Shown: positions 12,744 to 61,235 of the stretch, one piece after another
Numbering within the stretch: the stretch's first letter is position 1
Layout: each line of letters begins with the position of its first letter
NCBI RefSeq assembly: GCF_000701365.1
Contig: NZ_JNIK01000015.1
Coordinates: 1-64,000 of the forward strand
DNA length: 64,000 nucleotides
Reading direction: 5' to 3'
Origin: Blastococcus sp. URHD0036
Lineage (GTDB): Bacteria > Actinomycetota > Actinomycetes > Mycobacteriales > Geodermatophilaceae
Made by a program: the position numbers and the translations under genes
The notes under the pieces: generated by a model
Databases searched by the model: none
What the model was told of the DNA's origin: nothing
What the model saw: only the letters and a program-made list of their open reading frames with translations

Positions 12744-12760
12744 TCATCCTCGACGGGTGA
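12744..12760. promoter_or_regulatory. Shared palindromic operator, divergent (TCATCC-TCGAC-GGGTGA)
   Basis: Inverted repeat with a five-base spacer. On the minus strand GACCAT (12715-12720) lies 23 bases away and serves the nonapeptide-repeat gene. On the plus strand GACGAT (12783-12788) lies 22 bases away and points to the LuxR gene. Confidence 0.65.
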
Positions 12761-12951
12761 TACCGCCGGGTCGTCCGCGCAAGACGATGCCCCTGGTCGC
12801 CTTCCCCGTGACCTACGGCTCCGCGGCAGGGCACGAGGACCCTCACCCGTCCCCCGGGTGGGGGCCAGTCTCGTCGGCAGCGGGCGGATCGACCGGACCG
12901 TCGGTGGCACCCCGCCGACGGCCAGCGCACCACCGACGTCGGAGGCGAGCA

Positions 12952-15666
12952 ATGCCTGCCCAGCCCGTGTCCCTCACCCCTCAGCCAGGAGTCCCCCGGC
13001 CGAGGGGCCCGCAGCCGGGAGCTCCGGAACCCAGCGGCTGGTCCGACCTGCTGTCCGGGAAGCTCGAGCCCGCCCTCGTGGCCACCCCGACCCGCCGGCG
13101 GCCGCGGCTGCTGGCGGCGCTCACCTCGGCCGTGGAGCAGGCGCCGCTCACGCTGATCAGCGGCCCGGCAGGGGCCGGCAAGACCGCCCTCGCCGCGTCC
13201 TGGCGGGACGCCCGGCCCGAGCACCGGGACGTCGGCTGGCTGACCCTCGACGGCTTCGACGACGACCCGGGCACCTTCTGGAGCTACGCGGTGGAGGCGC
13301 TCGCCCGGGCAGGGGCGGACCTGGGCGGTCTCGGCCGCCCGGTGCCCGGGCAGTCGCTCCCGGCGTCGTTCGTCCCCCACCTGGCGGCTGCGCTGATGGC
13401 GCAGAGCCGGCCGGTGGTCCTGGTCGTCGACAACGCCGACCACCTGGTGGACCGGCAGATCACCGGCGCGATAGACCTGCTGATCCGCAATGCCGGTGCC
13501 CGGCTGCGCCTGGTCCTGTGCGCGCGCTCGGACCCGCAACTGCCCCTGCACACCTACCGGCTGGCCGGCGTGCTGGCCGAGATCCGCTCCGCCGACCTGG
13601 CCTTCACCCCCACCGAGACCGCCGACCTGCTCGCCGCCGCCGGTGTGCCGGCGACCCCGGACGTCGCCGCGCGGCTGGCCGAGCTGACCGAGGGATGGGC
13701 GGTCGGCCTCCGGCTCGCCGTCGCGCCGCTGAAGCGGGGGATGGCCCCCGAGGAGCTCGTCGCGGCGCTGGTCCAGGACGACGGCAGCGTGGCGCAGTAC
13801 CTGTTCGAGGAGGTCCTCCGCGACCAGCCCGCCGGGGTGCGCCGGTTCCTGCTGCGCGTCAGCGTGACCGACGAGCTCTGGCCGGACCTGGTCGACCGGC
13901 TGGGCGGCCGGCCCAACGGCCGCCGGGTGCTCGCGGCGCTCGCCTCCACCAACGCCTTCGTCGAGCACTCACCCGGTGCACCGGGGGGATTCCGGATCCA
14001 CGCGCTCTTCCGGGAGATGCTCCGCGCCCAGCTCGCCTACGCCCACCCCACCGAGGTGACGCGGCTGCACCGGGTCTGTGCGGCCTGGTACGACGCCGCG
14101 GGTGCCGGGCCGGCGGCGGTCCACCACGCCGTGGCGGCGCGGGACTGGTCGCTGGCCACGCACCTCCTCGTCGAGGACCTGCTGATCGGGCACGCGCTGG
14201 CCCACCGGTCCGATGCGGCGCTGCCGGACCTGGCCGCCCTCCCGGCCGACCTGGCCGCCCCCGACGCCGTCGTCGTGCGTGCCGCCACCGCGCTGTCCAC
14301 CGGCGGCCTGCCCACGCCGGCGGACCTCGCGATCGCCACCGAGGCCGCCGGCGACCCGGCGAACGGGCTGGCGCTGCGGGCCACCGCGGCGGTGGTGTCG
14401 GTGGCCGGGGCGGCGTTCCGGGGGGCGACCGACCTGCCGCCGGACGCCCCCGGCGCCGCCGACGACCTCGTCGCCGCGCTGCCCCGGGAGCGGGACGCCG
14501 AGCGGCGCGACATGACCGCGGTCCTCTCGACGGCCCGTTTCCTGCGCACCCTCGCCTCCGACCGGCCGACCCCCGTGCTCCTCGCCGACCTCGGGGCGGC
14601 CGCCGTGGCGGCGAACGCGGCCGGGTCGCGGCCGCTGCGGGGCTGGCCGGTGGCCTACCTCGCCCTCCTCGAGGCCCTGGCCGGGCGGTTGTCGCGGGCC
14701 GAGCGGCTGGCGCGTGACGCCGCCGCCGGGTGGGCCGACGGGCCCGGCGCCGAGGGCAGTCCGTGCCCGGCCGTGGCGGTCGCCCGTGCGTGGGTGCACC
14801 TGGGCCGCTTCGAGCTGGAGGCGGCCCGCGAGTGCGCCGACCGTGCCGCCGCGCAGACGGCGGGGTCCCTGGACGAGCGGTTCACCGCGCCGCTCCTGGC
14901 GGTGGTGGACAGCTGCCTGCTCCGCGTGCGGCACGAGTACGCCGCCGCCGAGGACGTCCTGCGGCCCCACGTCCTCGATGCCGGCCTGCCGCGGTGGATC
15001 CGCGAGGAGGTGCTGACCGAGGCCGTGCGGATCGCGCTCGCCCGGGGCCGTCTCGTGGAGGCGACCGCCGTGCTGGACGCCGCGGACGACGACACCGGGT
15101 GGACCGTGCGGTGGCGGGCCACCACCGCGCTGCTCGACCACTCCGCCGCGGTGGCGGTGCCACGGCGCGAGCCGCTGGGCGCGCGCGACGGGTCGCCGAT
15201 CGTCGCGGTCCAGAGCGGCGTGGTCCGGGCCTGCCAGCACCTGGAGGCCGGCGCCGTCCCCGCGGCCGTGGGCGAGCTGTCCCGGGCGCTGGACGCGGCC
15301 GCGCGGGAGACCCTGCGGTGGCCCTTCCTCGACGCCCCGCTCCAGGCCCGGCGGCTGCTGCGCACCCACCCGGACCTGCGTGGTCATGCGGAGTGGCTGA
15401 GCCTCACGCCCCCCGACCGGCCCGTCCGCGGAGCCGGGGCGGCTCCCGGACCGGCGCGGCCGGCGCCCCCGGTCCAGGACCTCAGCGAGCGCGAGCGGGA
15501 GGTGCTCGTGCACCTCGCCGAGATGCTGTCGACCACGGAGATCGCGGCGACGATGTTCATCTCGGTGAACACCGTGCGCACGCACATCCGCAGCATCCTG
15601 CGCAAGCTGTCGGCGACCCGCCGCAACCAGGCGGTCCGCCGCGCGCGCGAGCTGGGGGTCATCTGA
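12952..15666 (+). CDS. LuxR-family transcriptional regulator with MalT-like ATPase domain
   Basis: This 904-residue regulator has a STAND/AAA-type ATPase with Walker A GPAGAGKT near residue 72 and a Walker B-like VVLVVDNADH near 160. A long helical region of TPR type (about 350-800) follows, then a GerE DNA-binding domain at the C-terminus with LSEREREVLVHLAEMLS and FISVNTVRTHIRSILRKL. MalT-type proteins bind an inducer, oligomerise with ATP and activate transcription. GGAGG precedes ATG 12952. Its upstream gap holds one copy of the shared palindrome, so it may be a member or the regulator of that regulon. The inducer is unknown. Confidence 0.9.
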   Translation: MPAQPVSLTPQPGVPRPRGPQPGAPEPSGWSDLLSGKLEPALVATPTRRRPRLLAALTSAVEQAPLTLISGPAGAGKTALAASWRDARPEHRDVGWLTLDGFDDDPGTFWSYAVEALARAGADLGGLGRPVPGQSLPASFVPHLAAALMAQSRPVVLVVDNADHLVDRQITGAIDLLIRNAGARLRLVLCARSDPQLPLHTYRLAGVLAEIRSADLAFTPTETADLLAAAGVPATPDVAARLAELTEGWAVGLRLAVAPLKRGMAPEELVAALVQDDGSVAQYLFEEVLRDQPAGVRRFLLRVSVTDELWPDLVDRLGGRPNGRRVLAALASTNAFVEHSPGAPGGFRIHALFREMLRAQLAYAHPTEVTRLHRVCAAWYDAAGAGPAAVHHAVAARDWSLATHLLVEDLLIGHALAHRSDAALPDLAALPADLAAPDAVVVRAATALSTGGLPTPADLAIATEAAGDPANGLALRATAAVVSVAGAAFRGATDLPPDAPGAADDLVAALPRERDAERRDMTAVLSTARFLRTLASDRPTPVLLADLGAAAVAANAAGSRPLRGWPVAYLALLEALAGRLSRAERLARDAAAGWADGPGAEGSPCPAVAVARAWVHLGRFELEAARECADRAAAQTAGSLDERFTAPLLAVVDSCLLRVRHEYAAAEDVLRPHVLDAGLPRWIREEVLTEAVRIALARGRLVEATAVLDAADDDTGWTVRWRATTALLDHSAAVAVPRREPLGARDGSPIVAVQSGVVRACQHLEAGAVPAAVGELSRALDAAARETLRWPFLDAPLQARRLLRTHPDLRGHAEWLSLTPPDRPVRGAGAAPGPARPAPPVQDLSEREREVLVHLAEMLSTTEIAATMFISVNTVRTHIRSILRKLSATRRNQAVRRARELGVI

Positions 15667-15684
15667 GCGGGCCCGCAGGGGCGA

Positions 15685-15701
15685 TCACCCGTACCGGATG
15701 A
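15685..15701 (+). promoter_or_regulatory. Shared palindromic operator (TCACCC-GTACC-GGATGA)
   Basis: Inverted repeat with a five-base spacer. CACGGT at 15725-15730, 23 bases on, is the predicted -10. It serves the DUF6325 operon. Confidence 0.7.
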
Positions 15702-15790
15702 CGTGGGACGGCGGGGCACGGGGCCACGGTCGACAGACGTCCACGTGCCGCACCCCGGCCCCGCCCGCCGAACCTCCCCGGGAGATCTCC

Positions 15791-16261
15791 ATGACCAGCC
15801 AGCTCGACTCGGCCGCCGTGCTCGACCAGATGGGCCCGATCGACTACTTCGTCGTCGGTTTCGAGAACGACCAGCTGCGCGGTGAGGCCTTCCCGCTCCT
15901 CATCGACCTGGTCGACCGGGGCATCGTGCGCATCCTGGACCTCGCCTTCATCCGCAAGGAGGAGGACGGCCGGATGACGATCCTCAGCCAGGTGGACCTC
16001 GAGCGGATGCAGGCCCTGGACGCCGCCCTCTTCGACGGGGCGGCGTCCGGTGTGCTGCGCCAGGAGGACCTGGAGGAGGCGGCCGTCGCGCTCGACCCGG
16101 GGACCTCCGCCGGCGTGCTGGTCTACGAGAACGTGTGGGCCGCACCGTTCGTGGCCGCGATCCGCCGGGCCGGTGGCTACGTCGCCGCGACCGGGCACGT
16201 CCCGGTCTCCGAGCTGGTCGCGGCCCTCGACGCCCTGGAGGCGGAGGAGGCGGCCGGGTAG
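15791..16261 (+). CDS. DUF6325/DUF1269-like small protein
   Basis: The 156-residue protein contains DQMGPIDYFVVGFENDQLRGE, GIVRILDLAFIRKEEDG and an alpha-helical C-terminal half with SAGVLVYENVWAAPF. This pattern matches the actinobacterial DUF6325 group, related to DUF1269 and often found beside SHOCT genes. No membrane helix or catalytic residue is obvious; the tail is acidic. It starts a three-gene run whose downstream members follow closely and share one predicted promoter. The function is unknown, though relatives are commonly stress-linked. Confidence 0.78.
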   Translation: MTSQLDSAAVLDQMGPIDYFVVGFENDQLRGEAFPLLIDLVDRGIVRILDLAFIRKEEDGRMTILSQVDLERMQALDAALFDGAASGVLRQEDLEEAAVALDPGTSAGVLVYENVWAAPFVAAIRRAGGYVAATGHVPVSELVAALDALEAEEAAG

Positions 16262-17100: not shown

Positions 17101-17117
17101 TCGTCCCCGCGGGATGA
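17101..17117 (+). promoter_or_regulatory. Shared palindromic operator (TCGTCC-CCGCG-GGATGA)
   Basis: Inverted repeat with a five-base spacer. GACCGT at 17141-17146, 23 bases on, is the predicted -10. It serves the DUF7144, HdeD and SHOCT genes. Confidence 0.7.
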
Positions 17118-17181: not shown

Positions 17182-17649
17182 ATGACCGGCAGCACCGGCA
17201 GCGCCGCGGGCGCCTCCCAGCAGGACCGGGTCGACCCCGCTGCGGCGGGCCCGTCCCGGAGCGGGGGCTGGAACGCCTGGACCGGGTGGATCGTCTTCGC
17301 CGCCGTCCTGCTGATCCTGGTCGGCGTCCTCCAGGCGGTGCAGGGGCTGGTCGCGCTCTTCGACGACGGGTCCTACGCGGTCGGGTCCGACGGACTGGCC
17401 GTCCCCGTGGACTACACCGTCTGGGGCGTGATGCACCTGCTGGTCGGCACGCTCGCCGTGCTCATCGGCGTCGGGCTGCTCGCGGGCAACATGGTCGCCC
17501 GCGGCGCAGCCGTGGTGCTCGCGACCTTCAGCGCCATCGCCAGCCTCGCCTTCCTCCCGGCACGGCCGGTCTGGTCGCTCGTCGTGATCGCGCTCGACGT
17601 GGTCGTGATCCACGCCGTCGTCGTGCACGGGGGCGAGCTGGAGAAGTGA
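17182..17649 (+). CDS. DUF7144-family four-helix membrane protein (copy 1)
   Basis: The 155-residue protein has four predicted helices (about 35-60, 82-105, 108-125 and 128-148) joined by short loops. Family segments are LQAVQGLVALFDDGSY, VWGVMHLLVGTLAV, GVGLLAGNMVARG and a C-terminal HGGELEK. Two paralogues lie at 19725 and 40306. AGGAGG precedes ATG 17182. It begins a run with HdeD and SHOCT genes under one palindromic promoter. The biochemical role of the family is unknown. Confidence 0.82.
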   Translation: MTGSTGSAAGASQQDRVDPAAAGPSRSGGWNAWTGWIVFAAVLLILVGVLQAVQGLVALFDDGSYAVGSDGLAVPVDYTVWGVMHLLVGTLAVLIGVGLLAGNMVARGAAVVLATFSAIASLAFLPARPVWSLVVIALDVVVIHAVVVHGGELEK

Positions 17650-18653: not shown

Positions 18654-19586
18654 GTGAGGATCGTCGTCGCGCTCGGGGGCACCGCCCTCCGGCGGCCGGG
18701 TCAGCCCCTGACGGTGGAGAGCCGGCGCGCGGCCGTGGCGGCCGCGTGCGCGGCCCTCGCGCCGGTGGCCGAGGCGCACGAGCTGGTGATCTCGCACGGC
18801 GCCGGGCCGCAGGCTGGGCAGCTGTCGTTGCAGGCGCCGCTGCACGACGCGGCCGCCGCGCACACCGTCGACGGCCTCGACGCGCAGTCGGAGTGGGCGA
18901 TCGACTACCTGATCGAGCAGGAGCTGGGCAACCTGCTGCCCGCCGAGGCGCCGGTGGTCACCGTCCTCACGACGTCGGAGGTCGACCCGGACGACCCGGC
19001 GTTCGCCGACCCGACGGCGTTCGTCGGTCCGGGGCACCGGGCGGGCCGGGCGCGCCGGATCGCCCGGGAACGCGGCTGGGTGTTCCGCCAGGACGGGGAC
19101 GCGTGGCGGCGGGTGGTGCCCGCTCCCCAGCCGCGGCGGATCGTGCAGACCCGCCCGGTCGAGTGGCTGCTCGCCCGCGGCTGCGTGGTGATCTGCGCCG
19201 GCGGCGGCGGGATGCCGACCATGAGCCCGCGCGGCGTCCGCACGACCGTCGGCGCGGAGGCGGTCGTGGACAAGGACCGCGCCAGCGCTGTGCTGGCCCA
19301 GGACCTGGGGGCGGACCTGCTGCTCTTGGCCGGCGACGTGGACGCGGTCTACCTGGACTGGGGGACGCCGCACCAGCAGGCGATCGCCTGCGCCCATCCC
19401 GACGCCTTGGACGCCGCCAGCTTCCCGGCCGGGTCGATGCGGCCCAAGATCGAGGCCGCCGCGCAGTTCGCCCGGACCTCCGGCCGGTCCGCGGTCATCG
19501 GCTCGCTCGCGCAGCTGGCCGCGATCCTGGCCGGCGAGGAAGGCACCCGGGTCACCGTGCAGGTCGACGGTCTGCAGCTCCGGTGA
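18654..19586 (+). CDS. Carbamate kinase-like protein, divergent in active site
   Basis: The 310-residue protein aligns end to end with the arcC product at 44901. Shared segments include [32 protein letters not shown] and the C-terminal [13 protein letters not shown]. Two phosphate-binding segments differ: GGTALRRPG instead of GGNAL, and SHGAGPQAGQL instead of [11 protein letters not shown]. Both Asn residues that contact the carbamoyl phosphate group in carbamate kinase are therefore lost. It may be inactive, use another acyl phosphate, or be a regulatory copy. GTG 18654 is 60 bases after the SHOCT stop; no other arginine pathway gene is adjacent. Confidence 0.82.
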   Translation: MRIVVALGGTALRRPGQPLTVESRRAAVAAACAALAPVAEAHELVISHGAGPQAGQLSLQAPLHDAAAAHTVDGLDAQSEWAIDYLIEQELGNLLPAEAPVVTVLTTSEVDPDDPAFADPTAFVGPGHRAGRARRIARERGWVFRQDGDAWRRVVPAPQPRRIVQTRPVEWLLARGCVVICAGGGGMPTMSPRGVRTTVGAEAVVDKDRASAVLAQDLGADLLLLAGDVDAVYLDWGTPHQQAIACAHPDALDAASFPAGSMRPKIEAAAQFARTSGRSAVIGSLAQLAAILAGEEGTRVTVQVDGLQLR

Positions 19587-19595
19587 ACCGCCGGG

Positions 19596-19612
19596 TCATG
19601 CGCCCGGGGTGA
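19596..19612 (+). promoter_or_regulatory. Shared palindromic operator (TCATGC-GCCCG-GGGTGA)
   Basis: Inverted repeat with a five-base spacer, starting 10 bases after the carbamate kinase-like stop. GACGCT at 19636-19641, 23 bases on, is the predicted -10 for the second DUF7144 gene. Confidence 0.62.
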
Positions 19613-19724: not shown

Positions 19725-20165
19725 ATGACGGAGACCTCGCACAGCAGGACGCAGGGCGCGTACACCGAGGACCGCACCACAGGCTGGGTCGGGTGGATCT
19801 TCTTCGCCGCCGTGATGCTCATGCTGATGGGCGGGTTCCAGATCATCCAGGCGCTCGTCGCCCTCTTCGACGACGGCTTCTACCTCGTCCGGGAGAACGG
19901 CCTCGTCGTCGACGTGGACTACAACCTCTGGGGCTGGGTCCACCTCGTGATCGGCATCGTCGCGGTGCTCGGCGGCGTCGGCCTCCTCGCGGGCAACATG
20001 GCGGCCCGGATCCTCGGTGTCGGGGTCGCCTTCCTCAGCGCACTGGTGAACCTGGCGTTCATCTCGGCGTACCCCGTGTGGTCGACGATCATCATCGTGC
20101 TGGACGTCATCGTGATCTTCGCGATCGTCGTGCACGGGCGTGAGCTCAAGGACGACTACCGCTGA
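19725..20165 (+). CDS. DUF7144-family four-helix membrane protein (copy 2)
   Basis: This 146-residue paralogue of the genes at 17182 and 40306 has four helices and the family segments IIQALVALFDDGFYLV, LWGWVHLVIGIVAVLGGVGL, AGNMAARILG and HGRELKDDYR. AAGGAGG lies seven to eight bases before the ATG. It stands alone between its own palindromic promoter and a strong bidirectional terminator. The conserved FDDGxY and HGxEL ends suggest a shared fold; no activity is known. Confidence 0.82.
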   Translation: MTETSHSRTQGAYTEDRTTGWVGWIFFAAVMLMLMGGFQIIQALVALFDDGFYLVRENGLVVDVDYNLWGWVHLVIGIVAVLGGVGLLAGNMAARILGVGVAFLSALVNLAFISAYPVWSTIIIVLDVIVIFAIVVHGRELKDDYR

Positions 20166-20947: not shown

Positions 20948-21349
20948 TCAGACCAGGACCCGGCGCTTCAGCTGGTCGAACTCGTCCTGGCTGATGGCAC
21001 CCCGGTCGAGCAGGTCCTTGGCCCGGGCGAGCCGGTCGACGTCACTGGCTCCCGGTGCGGCCACGGAGCGGATGTAGGCGTCGGCGTGCTCCTGGGCGGC
21101 GCGGGCGCGGGCCTGCTCCCGGTCGGCCATGCCGCGGCCCTGGGTGATCAGGTAGGCCAGCGCGCCGATCATCGGCAGCACGATCAGCAGGACGATCCAG
21201 GCGGTCTTGGCCACCCAGGAGAGATCGCGGCGGAACAGGTCGGTGAAGACCGTGATCAGCAACCAGAAGTAGATCATCAGGGCGAAGAAGGCGAGGAACG
21301 TCCAGAACAGGTTCGCGAGGGGGTAGTCGTCGGCAGCGAGGATCGTCAT
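20948..21349 (-). CDS. Two-helix membrane protein with PLDN-type N-terminus and SHOCT tail
   Basis: The 133-residue protein has two membrane helices (about 13-35 and 47-68). The segment WVAKTAWIVLLIVLPMIGAL is typical of the phospholipase D-nuclease N-terminal (PLDc_N) family. A linker follows, then a SHOCT motif at 105-132 with DRLARAKDLLDRGAISQDEF and KRRVLV. The combination is common in actinobacteria and is thought to be membrane-associated. GGAGG precedes the ATG. The predicted promoter uses the palindrome at 21411, with GACGCT as the -10. Confidence 0.87.
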   Translation of the reverse strand: MTILAADDYPLANLFWTFLAFFALMIYFWLLITVFTDLFRRDLSWVAKTAWIVLLIVLPMIGALAYLITQGRGMADREQARARAAQEHADAYIRSVAAPGASDVDRLARAKDLLDRGAISQDEFDQLKRRVLV

Positions 21350-21410: not shown

Positions 21411-21427
21411 TCCTCCGGGCGGGATGA
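21411..21427 (-). promoter_or_regulatory. Shared palindromic operator (TCCTCC-GGGCG-GGATGA)
   Basis: Inverted repeat with a five-base spacer. On the minus strand GACGCT (21383-21388) lies 22 bases away and points to the PLDN/SHOCT gene. Confidence 0.65.
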
Positions 21428-21481: not shown

Positions 21482-21498
21482 TCATCCGGTGCGGAGGA
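21482..21498 (+). promoter_or_regulatory. Shared palindromic operator (TCATCC-GGTGC-GGAGGA)
   Basis: Inverted repeat with a five-base spacer. CAGGGT (21521-21526) lies 22 bases on and points to the small gene at 21570. It is the second site in the same divergent gap. Confidence 0.65.
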
Positions 21499-21569: not shown

Positions 21570-21842
21570 ATGCGACACCAGGTGTACGAACTGCGGGTCC
21601 GCGGCCCGGTCCCGCCGGAGATCCTCGAGGAGATCGGTGCGGTCGACCTCGGCGAGGAGCCGGCGCTCACGATCCTGCGCACGGAGCCGACCGACCAGCC
21701 GGGCCTGCACGGCATGCTGCAGCGCCTGCGCACCCTGGGCCTGGACCTGATCGAGGTGCGCTCCACCACCGACGGGGAGCCGCTGGAGCCGGCGGACCCG
21801 CCATGGAGCGGGTCCGCCGGCCCGGTCGCCCCGGCCGGCTGA
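21570..21842 (+). CDS. Small uncharacterised protein (90 aa)
   Basis: The product starts MRHQVYELRVRGPVPPEILE and contains DLGEEPALTILRTEPTDQPG and LHGMLQRLRTLGLDLIEVRS. This beta-alpha-beta pattern looks like a small ferredoxin-like fold. GAGGAG lies nine bases before the ATG, and the gene has its own copy of the shared palindrome upstream, which supports it as real. No named family is recognised. The last 25 residues are Pro/Gly-rich and probably disordered. Being in the regulon suggests a stress-related role, but that is inference. Confidence 0.72.
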   Translation: MRHQVYELRVRGPVPPEILEEIGAVDLGEEPALTILRTEPTDQPGLHGMLQRLRTLGLDLIEVRSTTDGEPLEPADPPWSGSAGPVAPAG

Positions 21843-23452: not shown

Positions 23453-23815
23453 TCAGGGCGCGCGGAGCTCCGGCACGTCGGACTCGGCCAGCGCGGCCGC
23501 GCCCAGGAAGGCGCGCACGATGCCGCCGGCGGCCGACGTCACCCGCGCCGTGCCGACCAGGGGGGCGAGCGCCACGAGCACCGACTGCGCCTGCTCCATC
23601 GTCACGCCGGCGTCCGCGGCGGCGGCGATGGTGACCGCGTAGGAGACCGGCGGTCCGTCCATCGCGACGAGCGCGGCCAGCCGCACCAGCACGTAGGTCT
23701 GCGGGTCCAGGCCGGACCGTTCGAGGGCGTCGACCTGCATGGCGAGGATCGTGTCGAGGACAGGCGTGTCACCTGCGGCGATGCGGTCCAGGGTGTGCGG
23801 TGCGGTCTGGGTCAT
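23453..23815 (-). CDS. Carboxymuconolactone decarboxylase-like protein
   Basis: The 120-residue all-helical protein contains LDPQTYVLVRLAALVAMDGP, AADAGVTMEQAQSVLVALAP and LVGTARVTSAAGGIVRAFLG. These match the AhpD/carboxymuconolactone decarboxylase fold, including the VLVALAPLVGTARV helix. The CxxC redox pair of AhpD is absent, so it is more likely a decarboxylase-type or structural member. ATG 23815 follows GCAGGAGG. Its upstream palindrome (23879) places it in the shared regulon. The substrate is unknown. Confidence 0.82.
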   Translation of the reverse strand: MTQTAPHTLDRIAAGDTPVLDTILAMQVDALERSGLDPQTYVLVRLAALVAMDGPPVSYAVTIAAAADAGVTMEQAQSVLVALAPLVGTARVTSAAGGIVRAFLGAAALAESDVPELRAP

Positions 23816-23878: not shown

Positions 23879-23895
23879 TCACCCGCCGCGGACGA
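23879..23895 (-). promoter_or_regulatory. Shared palindromic operator (TCACCC-GCCGC-GGACGA)
   Basis: Inverted repeat with a five-base spacer. On the minus strand GACGCT (23851-23856) lies 22 bases away and serves the decarboxylase-like gene. Confidence 0.65.
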
Positions 23896-44895: not shown

Positions 44896-44900
44896 GCGCC

Positions 44901-49286: not shown

Positions 49287-50162
49287 ATGTGCCGCTGGAT
49301 CGCCTACACCGGGTCACCGGTCCTCGTCCGGGAGCTGCTGTACACGCCGGAGAACTCGCTGATCGTGCAGAGCCTGCGCTCTCGCCTCGGCGCCGAACCC
49401 ACCAACGGCGACGGCTTCGGCCTCGGCTGGTACGGCGAGGGGGAGATCCCGGGGCAGTTCCGCAGCACCGAGCCGGCCTGGAACGACCGGAACCTGCTCG
49501 AGCTCGCCGGGCACATCCGCTCGCCGCTGGTCTTCGCCCACGTCCGGGCCTCGACGGGCTCGGTCGTGCAGCAGACCAACTGCCACCCGTTCCGCCACGG
49601 GCGGTGGCTGTGGATGCACAACGGCTACCTGGCGGGGTTCGCCGCCATGAAGCGCGAGCTCGCGCTGGCGGTCGCCCCCGAGCTGTACCCCGGCATCGAG
49701 GGGACCACCGACTCCGAGCTGTTCTTCAACCTCGCGCTGACGTACGGCCTGGAGGAGGACCCGCCGTCGGCGGTCGCCCGGGCCGTCGGCCTGATCGAAG
49801 AGATCGGCCGCCGCCACGGTGAGCGTTTCCCCGTGCAGATGACCGTGGCCACGACCGACGGAGAGACCCTCTGGGCCTTCCGGTACTCCAGCGAGGGGCG
49901 CTCCCGCTCGCTGTTCCACAGCGTCGAGGTCGCCACGTTGCGCGAGCAGTACCCGGAGAACGAGGTCCTCCAGCGCCTCTCCGACGACGCCCGGATGGTG
50001 GTCTCCGAGCCGCTCGGCGGGCTCCGGGGCGCCTGGCGGGAGGTCTCCGAGTCCACCTGCGTCGTCCTGCGGGACGGGACGGAGGAGCTGCACCCCTTCG
50101 AGCCGGTCGTCCCCCAGGTGCGCGGGCTGACGGCGGCCGGCTCCCTGCCGGGCACCCGTTGA
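49287..50162 (+). CDS. Class II glutamine amidotransferase domain protein
   Basis: The 291-residue protein starts MCRWIAYTGSPVLVRELLYT, with Cys2 as the N-terminal nucleophile after Met removal. It shows NGDGFGLGWYG, FAHVRASTGSVVQQTNCHPF and MHNGYLAGF, the glutamine-binding segments of Ntn amidotransferases. It is similar in size to EgtC-type and YafJ-like proteins, but no ergothioneine genes are near. It overlaps the YbdK-like gene in the four bases TTGA, so the two act together on an unknown gamma-glutamyl or amide compound. Confidence 0.87.
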   Translation: MCRWIAYTGSPVLVRELLYTPENSLIVQSLRSRLGAEPTNGDGFGLGWYGEGEIPGQFRSTEPAWNDRNLLELAGHIRSPLVFAHVRASTGSVVQQTNCHPFRHGRWLWMHNGYLAGFAAMKRELALAVAPELYPGIEGTTDSELFFNLALTYGLEEDPPSAVARAVGLIEEIGRRHGERFPVQMTVATTDGETLWAFRYSSEGRSRSLFHSVEVATLREQYPENEVLQRLSDDARMVVSEPLGGLRGAWREVSESTCVVLRDGTEELHPFEPVVPQVRGLTAAGSLPGTR

Positions 50163-51316
50163 CCGCGGCGCCCGGGCTGACCCGGCGCCCGGCCGTGCCC
50201 GGCGACGGCGTCCCGGCGGCCGGCGTCCCGACCGTGGGGGTGGAGGAGGAGTACCTGCTGCTCCGGCCGGACGGCCGGGTCGCCGACGTGGCGCCGGAGG
50301 TGCTCGCCGCGGTCCCGCCCGGGATCGGCGCGCACACCGAGTTCGCCCGCTGCCAGGTGGAGGTCGCGACCCCCGTGTGCGCGGGTCTGGCCGCGGTGGG
50401 CCGGGAGCTGTCGGCGGCCCGGTCCGGACTCGCGCGGGCGGCGGCGGACCTCGGCGCCTCCCTGGTCGCCTCGGGCACGCCACCGGTCGGCGCGCCGGGG
50501 ATCCTCGACCTCACCGACGACCCCCGGTACCGGCGCCTGGTGAGCTCCGTGACCGGGGTCCACGGCGACGAGATCACCTGCGCCGTACAGGTCCACGTCG
50601 AGGTCGCGTCGCGCGACCTCGGGACGGCGGTGCTCGCCCGGCTGCGGCCCTGGCTGCCCGTCCTGCTGGCGATGAGCGGCAACAGCCCGCTCTGGCGCGG
50701 TCGCGACACCGGCTGGTCCAGCCACCGGTTCGTCGTCCAGCGCAACTGGCCGTCCTTCGGCCCGCCGCCGGTCTGCGCCGACGCGGCCGACTACGACCGG
50801 CGGGTGGCCGACGCGGTCGAGAGCCACGCGGCGGTCGACGAGCGCGGGATCTACTACTGGGCGCGCCTGTCGCCGCGCTACCCGACGATCGAGATCCGCA
50901 TCGCCGACCAGTGCCTCACCGTGGCCGACTCCGTGCTGCTCACCGGGCTGTGCCGGGCCCTCGTCATGGGCGCCGTCGCCGACGAGGAGGCCGGCCGTCC
51001 GGCGCCGGTCGCGTCCGACCGGGAGCTGGGGGCCGCGGCGTCGGCGGCGGCCCGCCTGGGCACGCGCGCCCGCGTGCTGGACCCCCGGCACGGCGGCTGG
51101 GTCCCGGCGGCCCGGGTCCTGGACCGGCTGCCGCTGGTCCTGGCGCCCCAGCTGCAGGTCACCGGCGATGCCGAGGCGGTGACGGCCCTGCTCGCCGCGC
51201 GGCTCCGGAAGGGATCCGGCAGCGACCGGCAGCGCGCGCTGTGGCGTGCCGGCCCGGTCGACCGGTTCGTGCGGGCGGTGGCCGACATCGGCGCCGAGGG
51301 CGGTCCCGGTGGCTGA
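50159..51316 (+). CDS. Carboxylate-amine ligase, YbdK/glutamate-cysteine ligase type 2
   Basis: The 385-residue protein carries the GCS2 hallmark VGVEEEYLLL near residue 26, HTEFARCQVEVATPVCAGL and YPTIEIRIADQCLTVADSVL near 240. Members of this family ligate glutamate to an amine or cysteine. The start is TTG 50159, overlapping the amidotransferase stop; an initiator TTG is unusual but fits the coupling. It may make a gamma-glutamyl compound that the upstream amidotransferase then hydrolyses. Confidence 0.87.
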   Translation: MTAAPGLTRRPAVPGDGVPAAGVPTVGVEEEYLLLRPDGRVADVAPEVLAAVPPGIGAHTEFARCQVEVATPVCAGLAAVGRELSAARSGLARAAADLGASLVASGTPPVGAPGILDLTDDPRYRRLVSSVTGVHGDEITCAVQVHVEVASRDLGTAVLARLRPWLPVLLAMSGNSPLWRGRDTGWSSHRFVVQRNWPSFGPPPVCADAADYDRRVADAVESHAAVDERGIYYWARLSPRYPTIEIRIADQCLTVADSVLLTGLCRALVMGAVADEEAGRPAPVASDRELGAAASAAARLGTRARVLDPRHGGWVPAARVLDRLPLVLAPQLQVTGDAEAVTALLAARLRKGSGSDRQRALWRAGPVDRFVRAVADIGAEGGPGG

Positions 51317-53243: not shown

Positions 53244-56207
53244 ATGACGGGGACCCGCTCCGCGCCCATGCCGCGGCGTCCGGTCGTCCGCGCCCGCGCG
53301 ACCCGGCAGCAGCGCCGCGACCGCCGCAGCGCCGCCTTCGACCTGCTGGCCGTCGTCGCCGCGCTGGCGCTGGTCGGTCTCGGTCTGGCCAACCTGTACC
53401 TCATCGGGGAGCGGGAGCTGGCCGTCCGGCAGGCGGCCATCGCCGCCGCCGGCATCCTGGCGCTGGCCGTGTTCTGGCGCGTGCGGGTGCGGTTCCTCGG
53501 CGTCCTGGCCTGGGTCGCCTACGGCGTGGCCGTCGTCCTGCTCGCCGGGGTCCTCGCCGTCGGCCTGGCAGCGAACGGGGCCACCCGCTGGATCTCGGTC
53601 GGCCCGGTCACCTTCCAGCCCTCGGAGCTGGCCAAGCTCTCGCTGCTGCTGGTGCTGGCCGCCGTCCTCGGCTCGGCACGGCCGGCCTGGCGGCGGTTCG
53701 TCCTCGCCCTGGTTCTGGCGGCCGTCCCGATCGGGCTCACCCTCCTGCAGCCGGACCTGAGCACCTCGATGCTGCTGATCGTGCTCACCGCGGGCATGCT
53801 CGTGATCGGGCGCGTGCCGATGCGCTTCCTCGCGCCGCTGGCCGCCGCCGCCGTCGTCACGGCGCCTCTGCTGATCAGCCTGCTGCGGCCGTACCAGGTG
53901 TCGCGCCTGGGCAGCTTCCTCGTCGGCGCGCACGAGTCCCCGACCGGCTCGGGCTGGGCGGTGCGCCAGGCGCACATCGCGCTCGGTTCCGCGGGGCTCT
54001 TCGGCAACCAGGACGACCCGCTGCGGCTGCTGCGCTCGCAGTACCTCCCGGAACGCGACACCGACCTGGCGCTGGCCAGCCTGGTCGGCCAGTGGGGCCT
54101 GGTCGCCGGTGCCGGCGTCGTCCTGGCCGCGATCATCCTGGTGTGGCGGCTCGCGCTCGCCAGCCGGACCTCGCGCACGCCGCACGGGTCGCTGGTCGCC
54201 GGCGGGCTGGCCATCCTGCTCGGCGTCGAGACGGTCATCTCCGTGGGCGCCAACCTCGGGCTGCTGCCCCTGGCCGGGGTCCCGTTCCCGCTGGTCAGCT
54301 ACGGCGGCACGGCCCTCGTCGTGCACCTGGCCGCGCTCGGTGTGGTGCTCGCCGTCCGCCGTGACGGCGCCCGCCGGCGGCTGTGGACGCCGGCCGGCCG
54401 GCGCGCCCCGCGGCCGCGGCTGGTCCGGCTGGCGGCCGCCGCGCTGTCGGTGCTGCTGCTGTCCTTCGGGCTCTACGGCTGGCGGCTGCAGACCACCGAG
54501 GGCGCCGAGCTGCAGGTGGTGGGCGACGACCAGATGACCCGGTGCTTCCCGCTCGCCGCGGCGCGTGGCGCGATCACCGACCGGCACGACGAACTGCTCG
54601 CGCTGGACGCCGCCGACGCCGGGCTCGGGGTGGACCGGGTGCTCGTCGTGCCCGCCCTGCTGCGCGCCCGGCCGGCCGACGTCGACCGCCTCGCGGAGCT
54701 GGCCGGCCGGCCGCCCGCGGAGCTGCACGCGCCGATCGACGGCGCGGCGGACACCACGCTGTCGCTGCCGGTGGCCGACGTGCCCCGGGCCGTCGGGGAC
54801 GCAATCCGGGGGGCCGGCATCCCCGGGGTGTTCGTCGTCGCCCAGCCGCGGCGGGTGTACCCGCAGGGGGCGCTGCTCGGCCCGGTGCTGGGCTTCGTGG
54901 GCGTGGCCACACCCGAGGACGAGGAGCGCTGGCCGGGCCTGCCGGCGGGGGCGGTCGTCGGCCGCGCCGGGCTGGAGCAGGAGTACGACGCCGTGCTGCG
55001 CGGGATCGACGGGCGGCAGTGCCTCTACGTGAACCCGCGCGGGGTGCCGGTCACCCTCGGGGAGCGCCGCGACCCGGTACCGGGGGCGACGCTGCGGCTC
55101 TCGCTGGACATGGGCCTGCAGCGCCGGCTGGACGCCGACGTGGCCGCCGCCGTGCGGGCCCAGCCCCACCCGGCCGACCGGATCGGCGCGGCCGTGGCCA
55201 TGGACCCCCGGACCGGGCAGGTCCTCGCCATCGCCAGCTACCCGTCGTTCGACAACAACCTCTACGGGCCGCCGATCGACAACGCGGGCCTGCAGGCAGC
55301 GGCCACGGCGCCCGGTTCGCCGATGCTCGAGCACGTGACGCAGGGGGCGGTGCCCCCCGGGTCGACGTTCAAGCTCGTCGTCGCCGCCGCCAACCAGGCG
55401 CACCCGGTCTGGGGCGCCGACGACGTCGTGACCACGGGTGCGGAGTACCTGTACGGCGGGCACGTCTTCCACAACTGGCGGCCGATGGGGCCGATGGACA
55501 TGGTCGACGCCATCGCCGCCTCCAACGACGTCTACTTCTACAAGCTCGCGGTCGCGCTCGGCCCGGACGCGATGATCGACACGGCCCACCAGCTCGGGGT
55601 CGGCCGGCGCACGGGCATCGACCTGCCCGGCGAGTCGGCCGGCTACCTGGGCACGCCGGCCTCGGTCGAGGCCGACGGCGGGACGTGGTTCGGCGGCTCC
55701 ACCGTCATCCTCGGGATCGGTCAGGGGGAGCTGCAGGTCACGCCGATCCAGAACGCGCTGTGGACCGCGGCCGTGTCCACCGGCACCCTGGTCGTGCCGC
55801 GCCTCGGGATGGCGGTCGGCACGGATGCCGGGACCCCGTCGGCCGCCTTCACCGCGCTGCCCGCGCCGGTGGTGACCCCGCTGCCCTTCCCCGCCGACCT
55901 GGGACCGGTGCGCGAGGGCATGGTCCAGGTCGTGGCCGGCGGCACCGGGAGCCGGGCCGCGGTCTTCGGGGTGACCGTCGGCGCGAAGACCGGGACGGCG
56001 CAGGACGGCAGCCTCCCCGACGACGAGTACGACAACTGGATGTCGGCCGTGGCGCCGATGGAGGCGCCCGAGATCGTGATGACGGCCCTGGTGCAGGGGC
56101 CGGGGACGGGCGCCAACAGCGCCTCGGCCGTCGTCTCCGACGGCCTGCGCTACTACCTGGCCAACGCGGCGGCCGTGCTCGGCACCGGCCCGGTGCAGGC
56201 GCCCTGA
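53244..56207 (+). CDS. Natural fusion of SEDS glycosyltransferase (FtsW/RodA type) and class B penicillin-binding protein
   Basis: The 987-residue protein joins two cell wall enzymes. Residues 1-375 hold about 10 helices of an FtsW/RodA SEDS polymerase with NGATRWISVGPVTFQPSELA, RDTDLALASLVGQWGLVAGA (Asp near 274 at the catalytic TDF-like position) and LPLAGVPFPLVSYGGTALVV. A single helix near 395-415 leads into a class B PBP: AARGAITDRHDELLALDAAD, the Ser motif PPGSTFKLVVAA near 706, SND near 759 and KTG near 914. The ATG at 53244 follows GGGAGGGAG; GTG 53238 is possible. It faces an MreB-like gene. SEDS-bPBP fusions exist but are uncommon. Confidence 0.92.
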   Translation: MTGTRSAPMPRRPVVRARATRQQRRDRRSAAFDLLAVVAALALVGLGLANLYLIGERELAVRQAAIAAAGILALAVFWRVRVRFLGVLAWVAYGVAVVLLAGVLAVGLAANGATRWISVGPVTFQPSELAKLSLLLVLAAVLGSARPAWRRFVLALVLAAVPIGLTLLQPDLSTSMLLIVLTAGMLVIGRVPMRFLAPLAAAAVVTAPLLISLLRPYQVSRLGSFLVGAHESPTGSGWAVRQAHIALGSAGLFGNQDDPLRLLRSQYLPERDTDLALASLVGQWGLVAGAGVVLAAIILVWRLALASRTSRTPHGSLVAGGLAILLGVETVISVGANLGLLPLAGVPFPLVSYGGTALVVHLAALGVVLAVRRDGARRRLWTPAGRRAPRPRLVRLAAAALSVLLLSFGLYGWRLQTTEGAELQVVGDDQMTRCFPLAAARGAITDRHDELLALDAADAGLGVDRVLVVPALLRARPADVDRLAELAGRPPAELHAPIDGAADTTLSLPVADVPRAVGDAIRGAGIPGVFVVAQPRRVYPQGALLGPVLGFVGVATPEDEERWPGLPAGAVVGRAGLEQEYDAVLRGIDGRQCLYVNPRGVPVTLGERRDPVPGATLRLSLDMGLQRRLDADVAAAVRAQPHPADRIGAAVAMDPRTGQVLAIASYPSFDNNLYGPPIDNAGLQAAATAPGSPMLEHVTQGAVPPGSTFKLVVAAANQAHPVWGADDVVTTGAEYLYGGHVFHNWRPMGPMDMVDAIAASNDVYFYKLAVALGPDAMIDTAHQLGVGRRTGIDLPGESAGYLGTPASVEADGGTWFGGSTVILGIGQGELQVTPIQNALWTAAVSTGTLVVPRLGMAVGTDAGTPSAAFTALPAPVVTPLPFPADLGPVREGMVQVVAGGTGSRAAVFGVTVGAKTGTAQDGSLPDDEYDNWMSAVAPMEAPEIVMTALVQGPGTGANSASAVVSDGLRYYLANAAAVLGTGPVQAP

Positions 56208-57260: not shown

Positions 57261-57281
57261 CGCCGTCCACCGTGGACGGCG
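57261..57281. promoter_or_regulatory. 21-bp palindrome between mreB and the DMT transporter gene
   Basis: The ten-base arms CGCCGTCCAC (57261-57270) and GTGGACGGCG (57272-57281) flank one C and match perfectly. It differs from the shared TCATCC family and could be an operator or a leader hairpin for either divergent gene. Confidence 0.6.
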
Positions 57282-57346
57282 TGGCGGAGGTCCGGAACCG
57301 TGCGCCGGGGGTGCGGGAGGCCGGATTCCCGGCATGCTGTTCAGAC

Positions 57347-58249
57347 ATGGAGACCGCCGCCGCCGCACCGGGCGGGAACCCGCTGGCCGGCATGGCCATC
57401 GCCACGCTGGCGGCGGTGCTCTTCGCCGTGGGGGCGGTGCTCCAGCACGAGGCGGCCGAGCTCAGCACCACCGACCGGGGGCTGAGCCTGCGCCGGCTGA
57501 TGCGGCGGCGCCGCTGGATGATCGGCCAGGCCGCCACGATGCTGGGGACCGCCTCGCAGGTGGTCGCGCTGGCGGTCGCGCCCGTCGCGGTGGTGCAGCC
57601 GACGCTGGCGGTCACCCTCGTGTTCGGCCTGGGCATGCGCGCCGTCCGGACCCGGCAGGTGCCGCTGCGGAAGGAGCTGCTGGGGGTGGCGCTGACCACC
57701 GGCGGCCTGGCGGTCTTCCTGCTCGCCGCGAAGCCGGCCCGGGCCGTCGACCCGCCGGAGCCCGCCGTCCTCGCGATCGTGCTCGCGGTCGGCGTCTCGA
57801 TCCTGCTGGTCGTGGTCGCCACCTTCGCGGGGCACGGGCCGCGCGGGGCGCTGGCCTGCGGGAGCGCCGCCGGCATCGCGGCCGGCATCGGCGCCGTGCT
57901 CATCTCCGTCGGCATCCACAGCCTGCAGGAGGAGGGCTGGGCGCACGCCCTGGCCGGCGTGACCGTCTGGGGGGCGGCGGTCGTGGCCGGCGTCGCGATC
58001 ATCGGTGGCCAGCAGGCCTACGCGCGCGGATCGCTGGCCTGGTCGCTGCCGGCGTTGATCCTGCTCGACCCGCTGGCGGCCGTCCCGGCGGCGCGGCTGC
58101 TGCTGGGGGAGCACCTGGAACCCGGCCGGGCCGTGATCTGGCTGCCCGCGGCCGTGGTCGCCTGCGTCGGCGTCGTCCTGCTGGCCCGCACCGGGGAGCC
58201 CGCGGGAGCGGAGCGGGGGAGGGGCGCCGAGGGCGGGGTGCACGTCTGA
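57347..58249 (+). CDS. DMT-family transporter-like membrane protein
   Basis: The 300-residue protein has about nine to ten helices in two repeats, such as GMAIATLAAVLFAVGAVLQH and APVAVVQPTLAVTLVFGLGM. It resembles the EamA/DMT or magnesium-transporter-like NIPA group of small transporters. The ATG at 57347 has no clear ribosome site, and CATGCT at 57333-57338 could be its -10, so it may be leaderless. An antisense promoter-like palindrome lies just beyond its stop. The substrate is unknown. Confidence 0.78.
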   Translation: METAAAAPGGNPLAGMAIATLAAVLFAVGAVLQHEAAELSTTDRGLSLRRLMRRRRWMIGQAATMLGTASQVVALAVAPVAVVQPTLAVTLVFGLGMRAVRTRQVPLRKELLGVALTTGGLAVFLLAAKPARAVDPPEPAVLAIVLAVGVSILLVVVATFAGHGPRGALACGSAAGIAAGIGAVLISVGIHSLQEEGWAHALAGVTVWGAAVVAGVAIIGGQQAYARGSLAWSLPALILLDPLAAVPAARLLLGEHLEPGRAVIWLPAAVVACVGVVLLARTGEPAGAERGRGAEGGVHV

Positions 58250-58308
58250 CCTCCGTGTTCGGGGAGCTCATGGGGGGCCGACGCTAGGCAGGGACCGGGC
58301 CGGCCACC

Positions 58309-58325
58309 TCGCCTGCGCCGGATGA
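58309..58325 (-). promoter_or_regulatory. Orphan shared palindromic operator in a convergent gap (TCGCCT-GCGCC-GGATGA)
   Basis: The minus -10 TAGCGT (58281-58286) lies 22 bases away as at other sites, but points into the 3' end of the DMT gene. No convincing gene starts there, so antisense transcription is the likely product. Confidence 0.55.
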
Positions 58326-58337: not shown

Positions 58338-59273
58338 TCACCCGGCGTCGGCCGCCATGCGGAAACCGACGTTGCCGGCGCTGCTGTCGGGGGTGTTGGG
58401 GGAGCGGGCGGCGCAGCGGTAGCGCTCGCAGTAGGACGCGTGGCAGAGGTAGGAGCCCCCGCGCATGACCCGCTCCACCCGCCCCGTCGCGAACCGGTCG
58501 GCGCACCACTCCCACACGTTGCCGGTCGTGTTGTAGAGGCCGAACCCGTTGGGCGCGAAGGCGTCGACCGGCGCCGTGCCGACGTGCCCGTCGTCGCCTG
58601 TGTCGCGGGCGGGGAACTCGCCCTGGAACACGTTCATGCGGTGCTCCCCGCCGGGGGTCAGCTCGTCGCCCCACGGGAAGCGCATGCCCTCCAGGCCACC
58701 GCGGGCGGCGTACTCCCACTCGGCCTCCGCGGGCAGCCGGCCGCCGGCCCAGCGGCAGAACGCCCGGGCGTCCACCCACGAGACGTGCACGACCGGGTGG
58801 TCGCCCCGGTCGTCGACGTCCGAGCGCGGGCCCTCAGGGTGCTGCCAGGTCGCCCCGTACACCTGCCGCCACCACGGGGTGGCCGCGGCGGCGCGGGTCG
58901 GGGGGAAGTCGTCGGGCAGCAGGCCGCCGAAGACGAACGACCAGCGCTCGCGCTCGGCCGTGGTCGTGTACCCGGTGGCGGTCACGAAGCGGTCGAAGTC
59001 GGCGTTGGTCACCGTGTGGGCGGCGATCCGGAAGCCGTCGACGGAGACCGGCCGGACCGGTCCCTCGCCGTCGGCGGCGTAGCGCACCTCGTCCGAGCCC
59101 ATCCGGAACGTGCCGCCGGGGAGGTCGAGGAGCAGCTCCTGCGCCGCCGCTCCCGCCGCGAGCGGGCCGCTGTCGTCGGTCGCTGCCGCGTCCGTGCCGC
59201 CCGGGGACCTCGGCGCGCCGCAGCAGTGCGCCACGGGCAGACCGGAGGGCAGGGCGTCGGCGTGCTGCGTCAT
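58338..59273 (-). CDS. Formylglycine-generating enzyme family protein
   Basis: The 311-residue protein has the FGE-sulfatase fold and both copper-binding catalytic cysteines in RVMRGGSYLCHASYCERYRC, with C-x4-C spacing as in authentic FGEs. It converts a cysteine in CxPxR of sulfatases to formylglycine. Other motifs are FRMGSDE, HPVVHVSWVDARAFCRWAGG and GNVWEWCADRF. It lacks the DinB domain of EgtB. No sulfatase is in this window. The start is 35 bases from the palindrome at 59309, with CAGCAT (59280-59285) as the -10, so it is probably leaderless. Confidence 0.9.
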   Translation of the reverse strand: MTQHADALPSGLPVAHCCGAPRSPGGTDAAATDDSGPLAAGAAAQELLLDLPGGTFRMGSDEVRYAADGEGPVRPVSVDGFRIAAHTVTNADFDRFVTATGYTTTAERERWSFVFGGLLPDDFPPTRAAAATPWWRQVYGATWQHPEGPRSDVDDRGDHPVVHVSWVDARAFCRWAGGRLPAEAEWEYAARGGLEGMRFPWGDELTPGGEHRMNVFQGEFPARDTGDDGHVGTAPVDAFAPNGFGLYNTTGNVWEWCADRFATGRVERVMRGGSYLCHASYCERYRCAARSPNTPDSSAGNVGFRMAADAG

Positions 59274-59308: not shown

Positions 59309-59325
59309 TCATCCGGGCGGTGTGG
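59309..59325 (-). promoter_or_regulatory. Shared palindromic operator (TCATCC-GGGCG-GTGTGG)
   Basis: The right arm is poor, but the left arm, the 23-base spacing to CAGCAT (59280-59285) and the 35-base distance to the FGE start fit the other leaderless members. Confidence 0.55.
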
Positions 59326-59834: not shown

Positions 59835-60155
59835 TCAGTCGTCGAACTCGTCCCGCCGCGCGGCCCGCCGTGCCACCCGGCGGCGGTGCCGGCGCAGGAT
59901 CCCGAGCCCGATCCACACCACGGCCCCGAGCGTCGCCGTGACGATGGTGTAGAGCCAGAGGGGCCAGGTGAAGCCCCACCAGAGGAAGTCGAACCGCACG
60001 TCGTTGCGGTTCTGCACGATGAACACCACGAGCAGGCCACCGCCCAGGAGGGTGGACACCACCCCGGCGCTCAGGCCGGACTTCGTGGCCGGCGCGGGGC
60101 CGGGGCCCCCGGCCGGGCCGGTCGGGCCCGCCGGCGGCGGACTCTGCTGGACCAT
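59835..60155 (-). CDS. LapA-domain membrane protein
   Basis: The 106-residue protein has a Pro/Gly-rich N-terminus (MVQQSPPPAGPTGPAGGPGP) and then two helices around VFIVQNRNDVRFDFLWWGFT and LWLYTIVTATLGAVVWIGLG, followed by a basic cytoplasmic tail. The FIVQNRNDVRFDFLWW segment is the signature of the LapA/DUF1049 family of envelope proteins. GGAGG precedes ATG 60155. It shares a divergent palindromic promoter with the gene at 60290. Confidence 0.85.
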   Translation of the reverse strand: MVQQSPPPAGPTGPAGGPGPAPATKSGLSAGVVSTLLGGGLLVVFIVQNRNDVRFDFLWWGFTWPLWLYTIVTATLGAVVWIGLGILRRHRRRVARRAARRDEFDD

Positions 60156-60207: not shown

Positions 60208-60224
60208 TCACCCGGGCCGGATGA
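60208..60224. promoter_or_regulatory. Shared palindromic operator, divergent (TCACCC-GGGCC-GGATGA)
   Basis: Inverted repeat with a five-base spacer. The minus -10 CAGGGT (60180-60185) serves LapA and the plus -10 GAGGCT (60247-60252) serves the gene at 60290; both lie 22 bases away. Confidence 0.72.
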
Positions 60225-60556: not shown

Positions 60557-60565
60557 TCCCACGGA

Positions 60566-61135
60566 TCACGGGGCGTCCGGGAGCTCCTCGCCCAGCCCCG
60601 CCGGAACCGGCTCGCCGTCCTTCCGGGCGACGGCCACCTTCACCGCGCCGAGGACCAGCTTCGCCAGCACGCCCACGGCCACGAGCCCGACGAGCATCTG
60701 CACCGTGACCAGCACCCGCGCCAGCTCCGACACCGGCGTGATGTCACCGAAACCGACCGTCGAGAAGACGGTGATCGTGAAGTAGAGGCCGTCGGTGCGG
60801 TCCAGCGGCTCGGTGAAGGCCCCGACCTGCTCGGCGTCGACGATCCAGTACGTCGCCGCGAACACCACCCACAGCATCGGGAGGCCGACGGCGACCGCAC
60901 GGATGGCCTGCAGCCGCGGGGTGGCCGACCGCATGATGCCCCTCAGCTGGACGGCCATGACGACGCCGAACAGCGCCAGCGCCGCCAGGAACAGCACTCC
61001 GGTGAGGCCGTCGAGCGGCCGGTCCAGTGGTGCCGCGTAGTACAGGACGAGGAGCACCGCCGCCGTGACGGCGGAGCGCAGCAGCGAGCCGGCCACCGTC
61101 CGGCGCGCGGGCGACCCGGTGCTGGGACCTCGCAT
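60566..61135 (-). CDS. Two-helix potassium channel family protein (copy 2)
   Basis: The 189-residue paralogue of the gene at 27414 has an N-terminal helix pair and a pore with the filter region TVFSTVGFGDITPVSELARV near residue 125. TVGFGD is the filter, again with Phe instead of Tyr. It lacks a RCK domain. The ATG at 61135 lies 35 bases from the palindrome at 61171, with GACCGT (61142-61147) as the -10, so the message should be leaderless, as for the other copy. Confidence 0.88.
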   Translation of the reverse strand: MRGPSTGSPARRTVAGSLLRSAVTAAVLLVLYYAAPLDRPLDGLTGVLFLAALALFGVVMAVQLRGIMRSATPRLQAIRAVAVGLPMLWVVFAATYWIVDAEQVGAFTEPLDRTDGLYFTITVFSTVGFGDITPVSELARVLVTVQMLVGLVAVGVLAKLVLGAVKVAVARKDGEPVPAGLGEELPDAP

Positions 61136-61170
61136 GGGTCCACGGTCGCGGCGCGGGACCGGTCGGGGGA

Positions 61171-61187
61171 TCGCCCGGTGTGGATGA
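61171..61187 (-). promoter_or_regulatory. Shared palindromic operator (TCGCCC-GGTGT-GGATGA)
   Basis: Inverted repeat with a five-base spacer. The minus -10 GACCGT (61142-61147), 23 bases away, serves the K+ channel gene. Confidence 0.7.
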
Positions 61188-61218
61188 GCGCGCCAGGAGG
61201 TGCTCGCACGCCCCGCTG

Positions 61219-61235
61219 TCACCCCCGCCGGAGGA
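61219..61235 (+). promoter_or_regulatory. Shared palindromic operator (TCACCC-CCGCC-GGAGGA)
   Basis: Inverted repeat with a five-base spacer. GAACGT (61258-61263), 22 bases on, is the predicted -10 for the DUF2252 gene. It is the second site in the same divergent gap. Confidence 0.62.

Follow-up and report, generated by a model that had tools for sequence, protein, structure and literature searches.

A recurrent palindrome in Blastococcus sp. URHD0036 marks a regulon of a known kind and is a probable operator of MalT-type LAL activators

The stretch analysed here (hereafter the window) comprises 64,000 nucleotides of Blastococcus sp. URHD0036, a member of the Geodermatophilaceae, and corresponds to positions 1–64,000 of contig NZ_JNIK01000015.1 (C14 below) in an assembly of 5.18 Mb and 19 contigs. 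A first-pass annotation had listed 22 copies of a 17-bp palindrome, TCAYCC-N5-GGRTGA, in front of genes of this window, and proposed that they define an undescribed stress regulon. All 22 inverted repeats are present with the five-base spacer: six are exact, 12 carry one mismatch, and four (34807, 36881, 58309 and 59309) carry two. The window holds no palindrome with up to two mismatches upstream of 12744, in agreement with the annotation's remark on the first 12.7 kb. The first site, an exact palindrome at 12744–12760, has a -10-like pair of bases on both sides, and the first gene behind it (12952–15666, plus strand) encodes LAL1, a 904-residue MalT-type STAND ATPase with a C-terminal GerE domain, which is the candidate regulator.

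The genes beside the other sites were assigned on gene calls from my own simple caller script. An exact palindrome at 15685–15701 lies on the promoter side of a DUF6325 gene (15791–16261), and copies with one mismatch at 17101–17117 and 19596–19612 accompany two DUF7144 genes (17182–17649 and 19725–20165). Three more single-mismatch sites follow: 21411–21427, directed toward a PLDc_N/SHOCT gene (20948–21349, minus strand); 21482–21498, directed toward a small called open reading frame (ORF) on the plus strand (21570–21842); and 23879–23895, directed toward a CMD-family gene (23453–23815, minus). Two exact sites separate divergent genes. At 25791–25807 these are a trehalase-like GH15 gene (23903–25756, minus), whose start codon is 35 nt away, and a SHOCT-containing gene (25890–27398, plus); at 28000–28016 they are an ion channel gene (27414–27965, minus), also with its start codon at 35 nt, and a DUF1269 gene (28139–28648, plus). 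The exact site 29927–29943 falls within the 3' end of a Na/H exchanger gene and accompanies a SulP gene (30006–31745), while the two-mismatch sites 34807–34823, directed toward 34191–34724 (minus), and 36881–36897, beside an Abhydrolase_9 gene (36954–38687), each have TAGCGT as -10 hexamer.

Further along, a single-mismatch site at 40837–40853 is flanked by a DUF7144 gene (40306–40761, minus) and a small called ORF (40915–41052, plus), and another at 41110–41126 belongs to the arginine deiminase (ADI) operon (41189–45833, plus), which consists of genes for an amino acid permease, arginine deiminase, ornithine carbamoyltransferase and carbamate kinase. There are two carbamate kinase genes in the region (18654–19586 and 44901–45833), and the operon holds the second only. 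Three sites with one mismatch come next: 47744–47760, over the stop codon of an amino acid permease gene (47744–49054, minus) and 35 nt from the start codon of an MFS gene (46108–47709, minus); 49089–49105, 35 nt from the start codon of that same permease gene; and 49151–49167, which accompanies genes for a class II amidotransferase (49287–50162) and a GCS2 protein (50159–51316). The two-mismatch site 58309–58325 is doubtful; it sits between convergent genes with TAGCGT on the minus strand. On that strand (58266–58325) the hexamer occupies the usual column; a 90-residue ORF, antisense to the gene at 57272–58249, begins with the ATG at 58271. The last four sites are 59309–59325 (two mismatches), 36 nt from the start codon of an FGE-type gene (58338–59273, minus); 60208–60224 (exact), beside a LapA_dom gene (59835–60155, minus) and with the -10 pair on both sides; 61171–61187 (one mismatch), 36 nt from the start codon of an ion channel gene (60566–61135, minus); and 61219–61235 (one mismatch), beside a DUF2252 gene (61306–62760). 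Elsewhere in the window, 53244–56207 is a single 987-residue frame with FtsW/RodA and penicillin-binding transpeptidase domains, adjoining an MreB-like gene, and no tRNA genes were found in the window.

The palindrome is far more frequent than expected. Exact copies number six in the window against 0.02 expected, and copies with up to one mismatch number 18 against 0.73, a count that none of 100 shuffles equalled. Allowing up to three mismatches gives 74 copies, which is under the chance mean of 93.95; the signal is therefore confined to good matches. Eight palindromes have exactly two mismatches, four of them on the original list and the other four intragenic (14043, 15384, 21826 and 22252). 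When only perfect half-sites (TCAYCC/GGRTGA) are considered, inverted repeats occur as nine pairs at a spacer of five and as a single pair over the rest of the 0–39 range. Other spacers, and everted or direct arrangements, were rejected, as none gave more than one pair of perfect half-sites per spacing. The half-site consensus, taken from 33 sites on both strands, is GG[A 38, G 28][T 51, G 9, C 6]GA. The promoter-proximal half is not clearly favoured for integrity, with 15 distal and 10 proximal mismatches among 25 one-directional sites (p 0.42).

Over the whole assembly, 63 places match with up to one mismatch against eight for the reversed pattern, showing that the set continues beyond the window. 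These sites cluster: 29 are in a main island at C14:12.7–99 kb, and four in a small island at 91–98 kb of contig C3, which also includes a PPK2 gene. In the main island (C14:12701–99000), 24 of the 29 sites are wholly intergenic, although intergenic DNA makes up 6.3 of 86.3 kb, against four sites in 80 kb of coding DNA and one across a gene edge. The four coding sites (29927, 47744, 83254 and 89437) all occupy the 3' end of the gene that lies upstream. At three of them (47744, C14:83254 and C14:89437) the stop codon of that gene is the outer TGA/TCA of the palindrome.

The sites also stand at a fixed distance from promoter-like sequence. In 38 of 50 site–gene pairs an A is found at column 24 or 25 past the palindrome with a T four bases on, while the same pair of bases at the other 53 columns averages 0.19 occurrences with a maximum of 1. 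Such a pair is present on at least one side of 19 of the 22 listed sites, and on both sides of seven; it is absent from the usual column at 41110 (the ADI operon), 49089 and 49151. The annotation's -10-like hexamer at a constant downstream distance, on one or both strands, is thus borne out. Taking the T as position -7 places +1 at column 35–36 and the centre of the palindrome near -43, a location immediately upstream of the -10 that would suit an activator, as had been proposed. Start codons lie 35–37 nt from the palindrome in eight of the 50 pairs, and at least 53 nt away in all others. Since these eight coincide with the predicted +1, leaderless messages are suggested for them.

Taken as chance occurrences or as a non-regulatory repeat, the palindromes would account for the three-mismatch count, which is not above chance, but not for 18 sites against 0.73, 63 against eight for the reversed pattern, or the fixed -10 distance. 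I therefore reject this explanation, whose probability I consider negligible. The regulon claimed by the annotation is real and strong.

What, then, could read the palindrome? A GerE-type DNA-binding domain had been expected, and the analysis supports this, with a MalT-type LAL (STAND ATPase plus GerE) as the best candidate. LAL1 combines an N-terminal AAA/STAND-type ATPase with a GerE domain, and the nearest solved structure by sequence is E. coli MalT (E 1.7e-35). MalT is also the nearest fold to a predicted LAL1 model (8 sequences; mean pLDDT 78.5, pTM 0.57). Residues ∼437–810 are predicted to be all-helical; repeat families gave no match to LAL1, and a TPR_MalT match to LAL2 was below cut-off. 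Four further LALs are encoded on the same contig: LAL2 (C14:70950–73151), LAL3 (73516–76131), LAL4 (76226–78796) and LAL5 (363679–366195). Sites precede LAL2 (73495), LAL5 (363383) and LAL4 (78918, two mismatches), and LAL3 lies behind LAL4 on the same strand. All five possess a Walker A motif, and the C-terminal GerE domain is found in the LALs, in LAL5 by alignment only. The recognition helix SVNT[VI][RK][TS]H is common to LAL1, LAL3, LAL4 and LAL5. Among the relatives of LAL1 that carry a name, the closest come from Geodermatophilaceae. Among nine genomes with relatives at E<1e-200 (its own included), eight have a site with up to one mismatch ∼320 bp or less upstream of the best relative, and in the ninth (locus L063) the sites are at the 3' side. 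The LAL3- and LAL4-type neighbours (C14:70950–78796) recur in the loci of four relatives (L141–L144), one of which, L144, adds a short LAL2-type gene.

The presence of LALs and that of sites go together across genomes. In 112 genomes of the family, the ten whose LAL reaches E<1e-100 all have 6–15 exact sites, and the 66 counted as having no LAL match have 0–4, bar one (G066) with six; the search scored eight first-look candidates per genome, and 46 genomes count as no match by default. The six sites of G066 are spread over six contigs, and this genome has no LAL3 match either. In 394 genomes of the class, counts of exact sites reach 19, and 12 family labels include a genome with at least eight. 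Among 60 of these, picked non-randomly by site count and family (no f20 genome with 8 or 10 sites being in the set), a LAL is present in 30/30 with at least six sites, 3/9 with 2–5 and 6/21 with 0–1. A tree of 60 LALs (62 matches minus L128, which is the same locus as L046, and L153, whose C-terminus is out of frame; L135 and L138, with divergent or missing GerE read-outs, were kept) has a site within 2.5 kb of 42. Mapped on this tree, the label "site nearby" changes seven times against 15.6 when shuffled, and none of 500 shuffles was that low. A supported clade of 11 LALs, nine of them with an RTHT-type helix, has no member with a site nearby.

The links between sites and genes are conserved as well. 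I counted a site when it had up to one mismatch and fell in the stretch from 300 bp before the inferred start to 20 bp past it; homologues had to reach half the length of the query, and LALs were excluded. Homologues of site-adjacent island genes in other loci have an upstream site in 57/88 cases (34/47 outside the family), most consistently DUF6325 (8/8), DUF1269 (6/6) and PLDc_N/SHOCT (6/6). The reversed-pattern control gave none for site-adjacent genes, none for other island genes and three for non-homologous neighbours. Homologues of an ABC protein have a site in 0/8 cases.

These data also bear on other regulators encoded in the island. The annotation likened the arrangement to DevR/DosR, and a two-component system of this type could in principle read the palindrome: a response regulator (C14:92630–93277) with a GerE domain is encoded inside the island next to a HisKA_3 kinase (93274–94557), and the idea of the regulon resembles that of OsdR in Streptomyces (PMC5069765). 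DevR/DosR of Mycobacterium tuberculosis and OsdR share with the present system clustered targets, a GerE-type regulator and a palindrome upstream of promoters. However, the OsdR consensus of S. coelicolor, AGGGCCGATCGGCCCT, differs by eye from the palindrome, and the best candidate here is a STAND ATPase, not a response regulator. Orthologues of the island response regulator (at least 86% identity) are present in at least 29 of the 112 family genomes, and their presence shows no association with the number of sites (p 0.61); G110 encodes one that is 95% identical, yet has a single exact site. In other loci, 0/5 homologues have an upstream site. I therefore reject the DosR/OsdR reading as very improbable, as its motif is different and its regulator does not track the sites. 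Scarcely more probable is control by another regulator of the island, either one of two AraC-type proteins (33067–34110 and C14:83621–84670) or an 88-residue, GerE-only ORF (39503–39769). All three sit among the targets, but each AraC-type protein has a homologue (at least half length) in just 1/46 loci, without a site, and genetics in Actinoplanes indicates a LAL as the regulator (Droste et al., 2020; PMC7567727). The 88-residue ORF is barely more than its GerE domain, and is followed by a gene for a STAS-domain protein (39503–40271 together).

The palindrome very probably serves as operator for a MalT-type LAL activator, most likely LAL1 joined by some of the four paralogues. The sites, their spacing, the -10 geometry, the LAL genes, their co-occurrence and the conserved site–gene links were all established by computation. 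Several results weigh against this assignment. LAL1 scores 211 of the 537 bits set as the NCBIfam MalT cut-off, and so is not MalT proper; the GerE/helix-turn-helix part of its model is of low confidence, and the recognition helix of LAL2 has diverged. Of the 36 family genomes with only weaker LAL matches, 33 have 0–5 sites and three have 8, 13 and 19, so that a LAL match alone does not predict an island. Small TCACCC-N5-GGGTGA clusters occur without a LAL match in two genomes (G247:C5:53478–60277 and G267:C18:159356–167672), where another regulator with a similar operator is perhaps at work. Homologues of the other island genes have a site in 17/64 cases (7/24 outside the family), and so do 63/722 neighbours without homology to island genes. 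Finally, shared descent among the genomes inflates the statistics, and the set of 60 was selected by site count.

Which LAL binds, its binding in Blastococcus, the signal and the physiological role are matters of inference. The sensor part of the LAL would bind a signal, upon which the ATPase would go to its ATP form and multimerise as E. coli MalT does. Two GerE domains would then occupy the inverted GGRTGA half-sites, about one helical turn apart, and the LAL, bound upstream of a weak -10 with its centre near -43, would recruit RNA polymerase. One palindrome may be able to serve divergent genes, and some start codons would lie at the predicted +1, giving leaderless messages. A wider proposal, tentative and rather unlikely to hold in full, is that five STAND-LuxR ATPases, diverged in their sensor parts and in four cases similar in their recognition helices, converge on one palindrome and on each other's promoters, making a switch with multiple inputs that acts at more than 30 sites, and that the operator–LAL pair drives a shared cargo (DUF7144, DUF6325, DUF1269 and SHOCT proteins) across many actinobacterial families.

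The genes near sites include the ADI operon, glutamate decarboxylase, PPK2, channels, SulP, a MIP channel, an FGE-type protein and two sulfatases, a cargo that would fit energy, acid or ionic maintenance; the "stress" role is a guess from this gene content. An alternative keeps the LAL as regulator, but has the regulon answer sugar or amino acid supply, as proposed for Actinoplanes, where transcription is maltose-dependent (PMC7567727). The permeases, the ADI operon, the trehalase-like GH15 and glutamate decarboxylase are in line with it, while the channels, the Na/H exchanger, PPK2, the MIP channel, SulP and the small membrane proteins are just as compatible with a role in ionic or energy maintenance. 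I regard supply as a serious contender, with somewhat less than an even chance of being right. The FGE-type gene (58338–59273) and the two type I sulfatase genes (C14:64147–66498 and 66670–69027) have sites at or near their promoters, and may encode a maturase and its clients within a single regulon.

With these results, what had been described in one species and its close relatives becomes a regulatory system that can be recognised in many actinobacterial families. The operator, the family of regulators and a set of little-understood genes that keeps recurring (DUF7144, DUF6325, DUF1269, SHOCT) can be studied jointly, and the system opens a direct route at the bench to the signals of MalT-type STAND proteins beyond maltose metabolism.

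The regulon shares with E. coli MalT a regulator made of a STAND ATPase and a GerE domain, and its half-site, GG[AG][T>G]GA, agrees with the MalT core quoted as GGA(T/G)GA (PMC7567727). It differs in that the half-sites form an inverted N5 pair and not the repeats of the MalT box, in that the cargo examined shows no maltose genes, and in that LAL1 is under the MalT equivalog cut-off. The closest precedent is the 51-gene "maltose-regulated large genomic region" (MRLGR) of Actinoplanes SE50/110 (Droste et al., 2020; PMC7567727), which was the only description of the motif found among the papers searched, none being found for Geodermatophilaceae. There, TCATCC-5nt-GGATGA is present at 17 mapped start sites, at a distance of 34.4 ± 1.0 nt, and the region, which responds to maltose over glucose, is activated by a MalT-like LuxR/LAL protein: when it is deleted, 42 of the 51 genes fall in expression, and when it is overexpressed, at least 39 rise. 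The region carries an operon for a permease, arginine deiminase, ornithine carbamoyltransferase and carbamate kinase as well as a gene for a class II glutamine amidotransferase, and relatives have ppk2 (PMC7567727). The Blastococcus regulon has the same palindrome, spacer and clustered targets, MalT-like LuxR genes inside the region, and a matching start-site distance, here derived from the -10 (A at 24/25, T at 28/29, +1 at ∼35–36); by family assignment it also has the same operon (behind 41110), a class II amidotransferase (behind 49151), and PPK2 as in the Actinoplanes relatives. Because motif, ADI operon, amidotransferase and PPK2 are held in common, I conclude that it is a member of the MRLGR kind: a real regulon, known in kind, so that the claim of an undescribed one does not stand, the same palindrome and geometry being on record. 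Judged by the text of that paper, it differs from SE50/110 in its family, in the extension of its sites over ∼86 kb and a second island, in having five LALs against two MalT-like proteins, and in a cargo with glutamate decarboxylase, FGE and sulfatases. What is new is the host family, the spread over many actinobacterial families, the shared cargo, and the five LALs around one operator.

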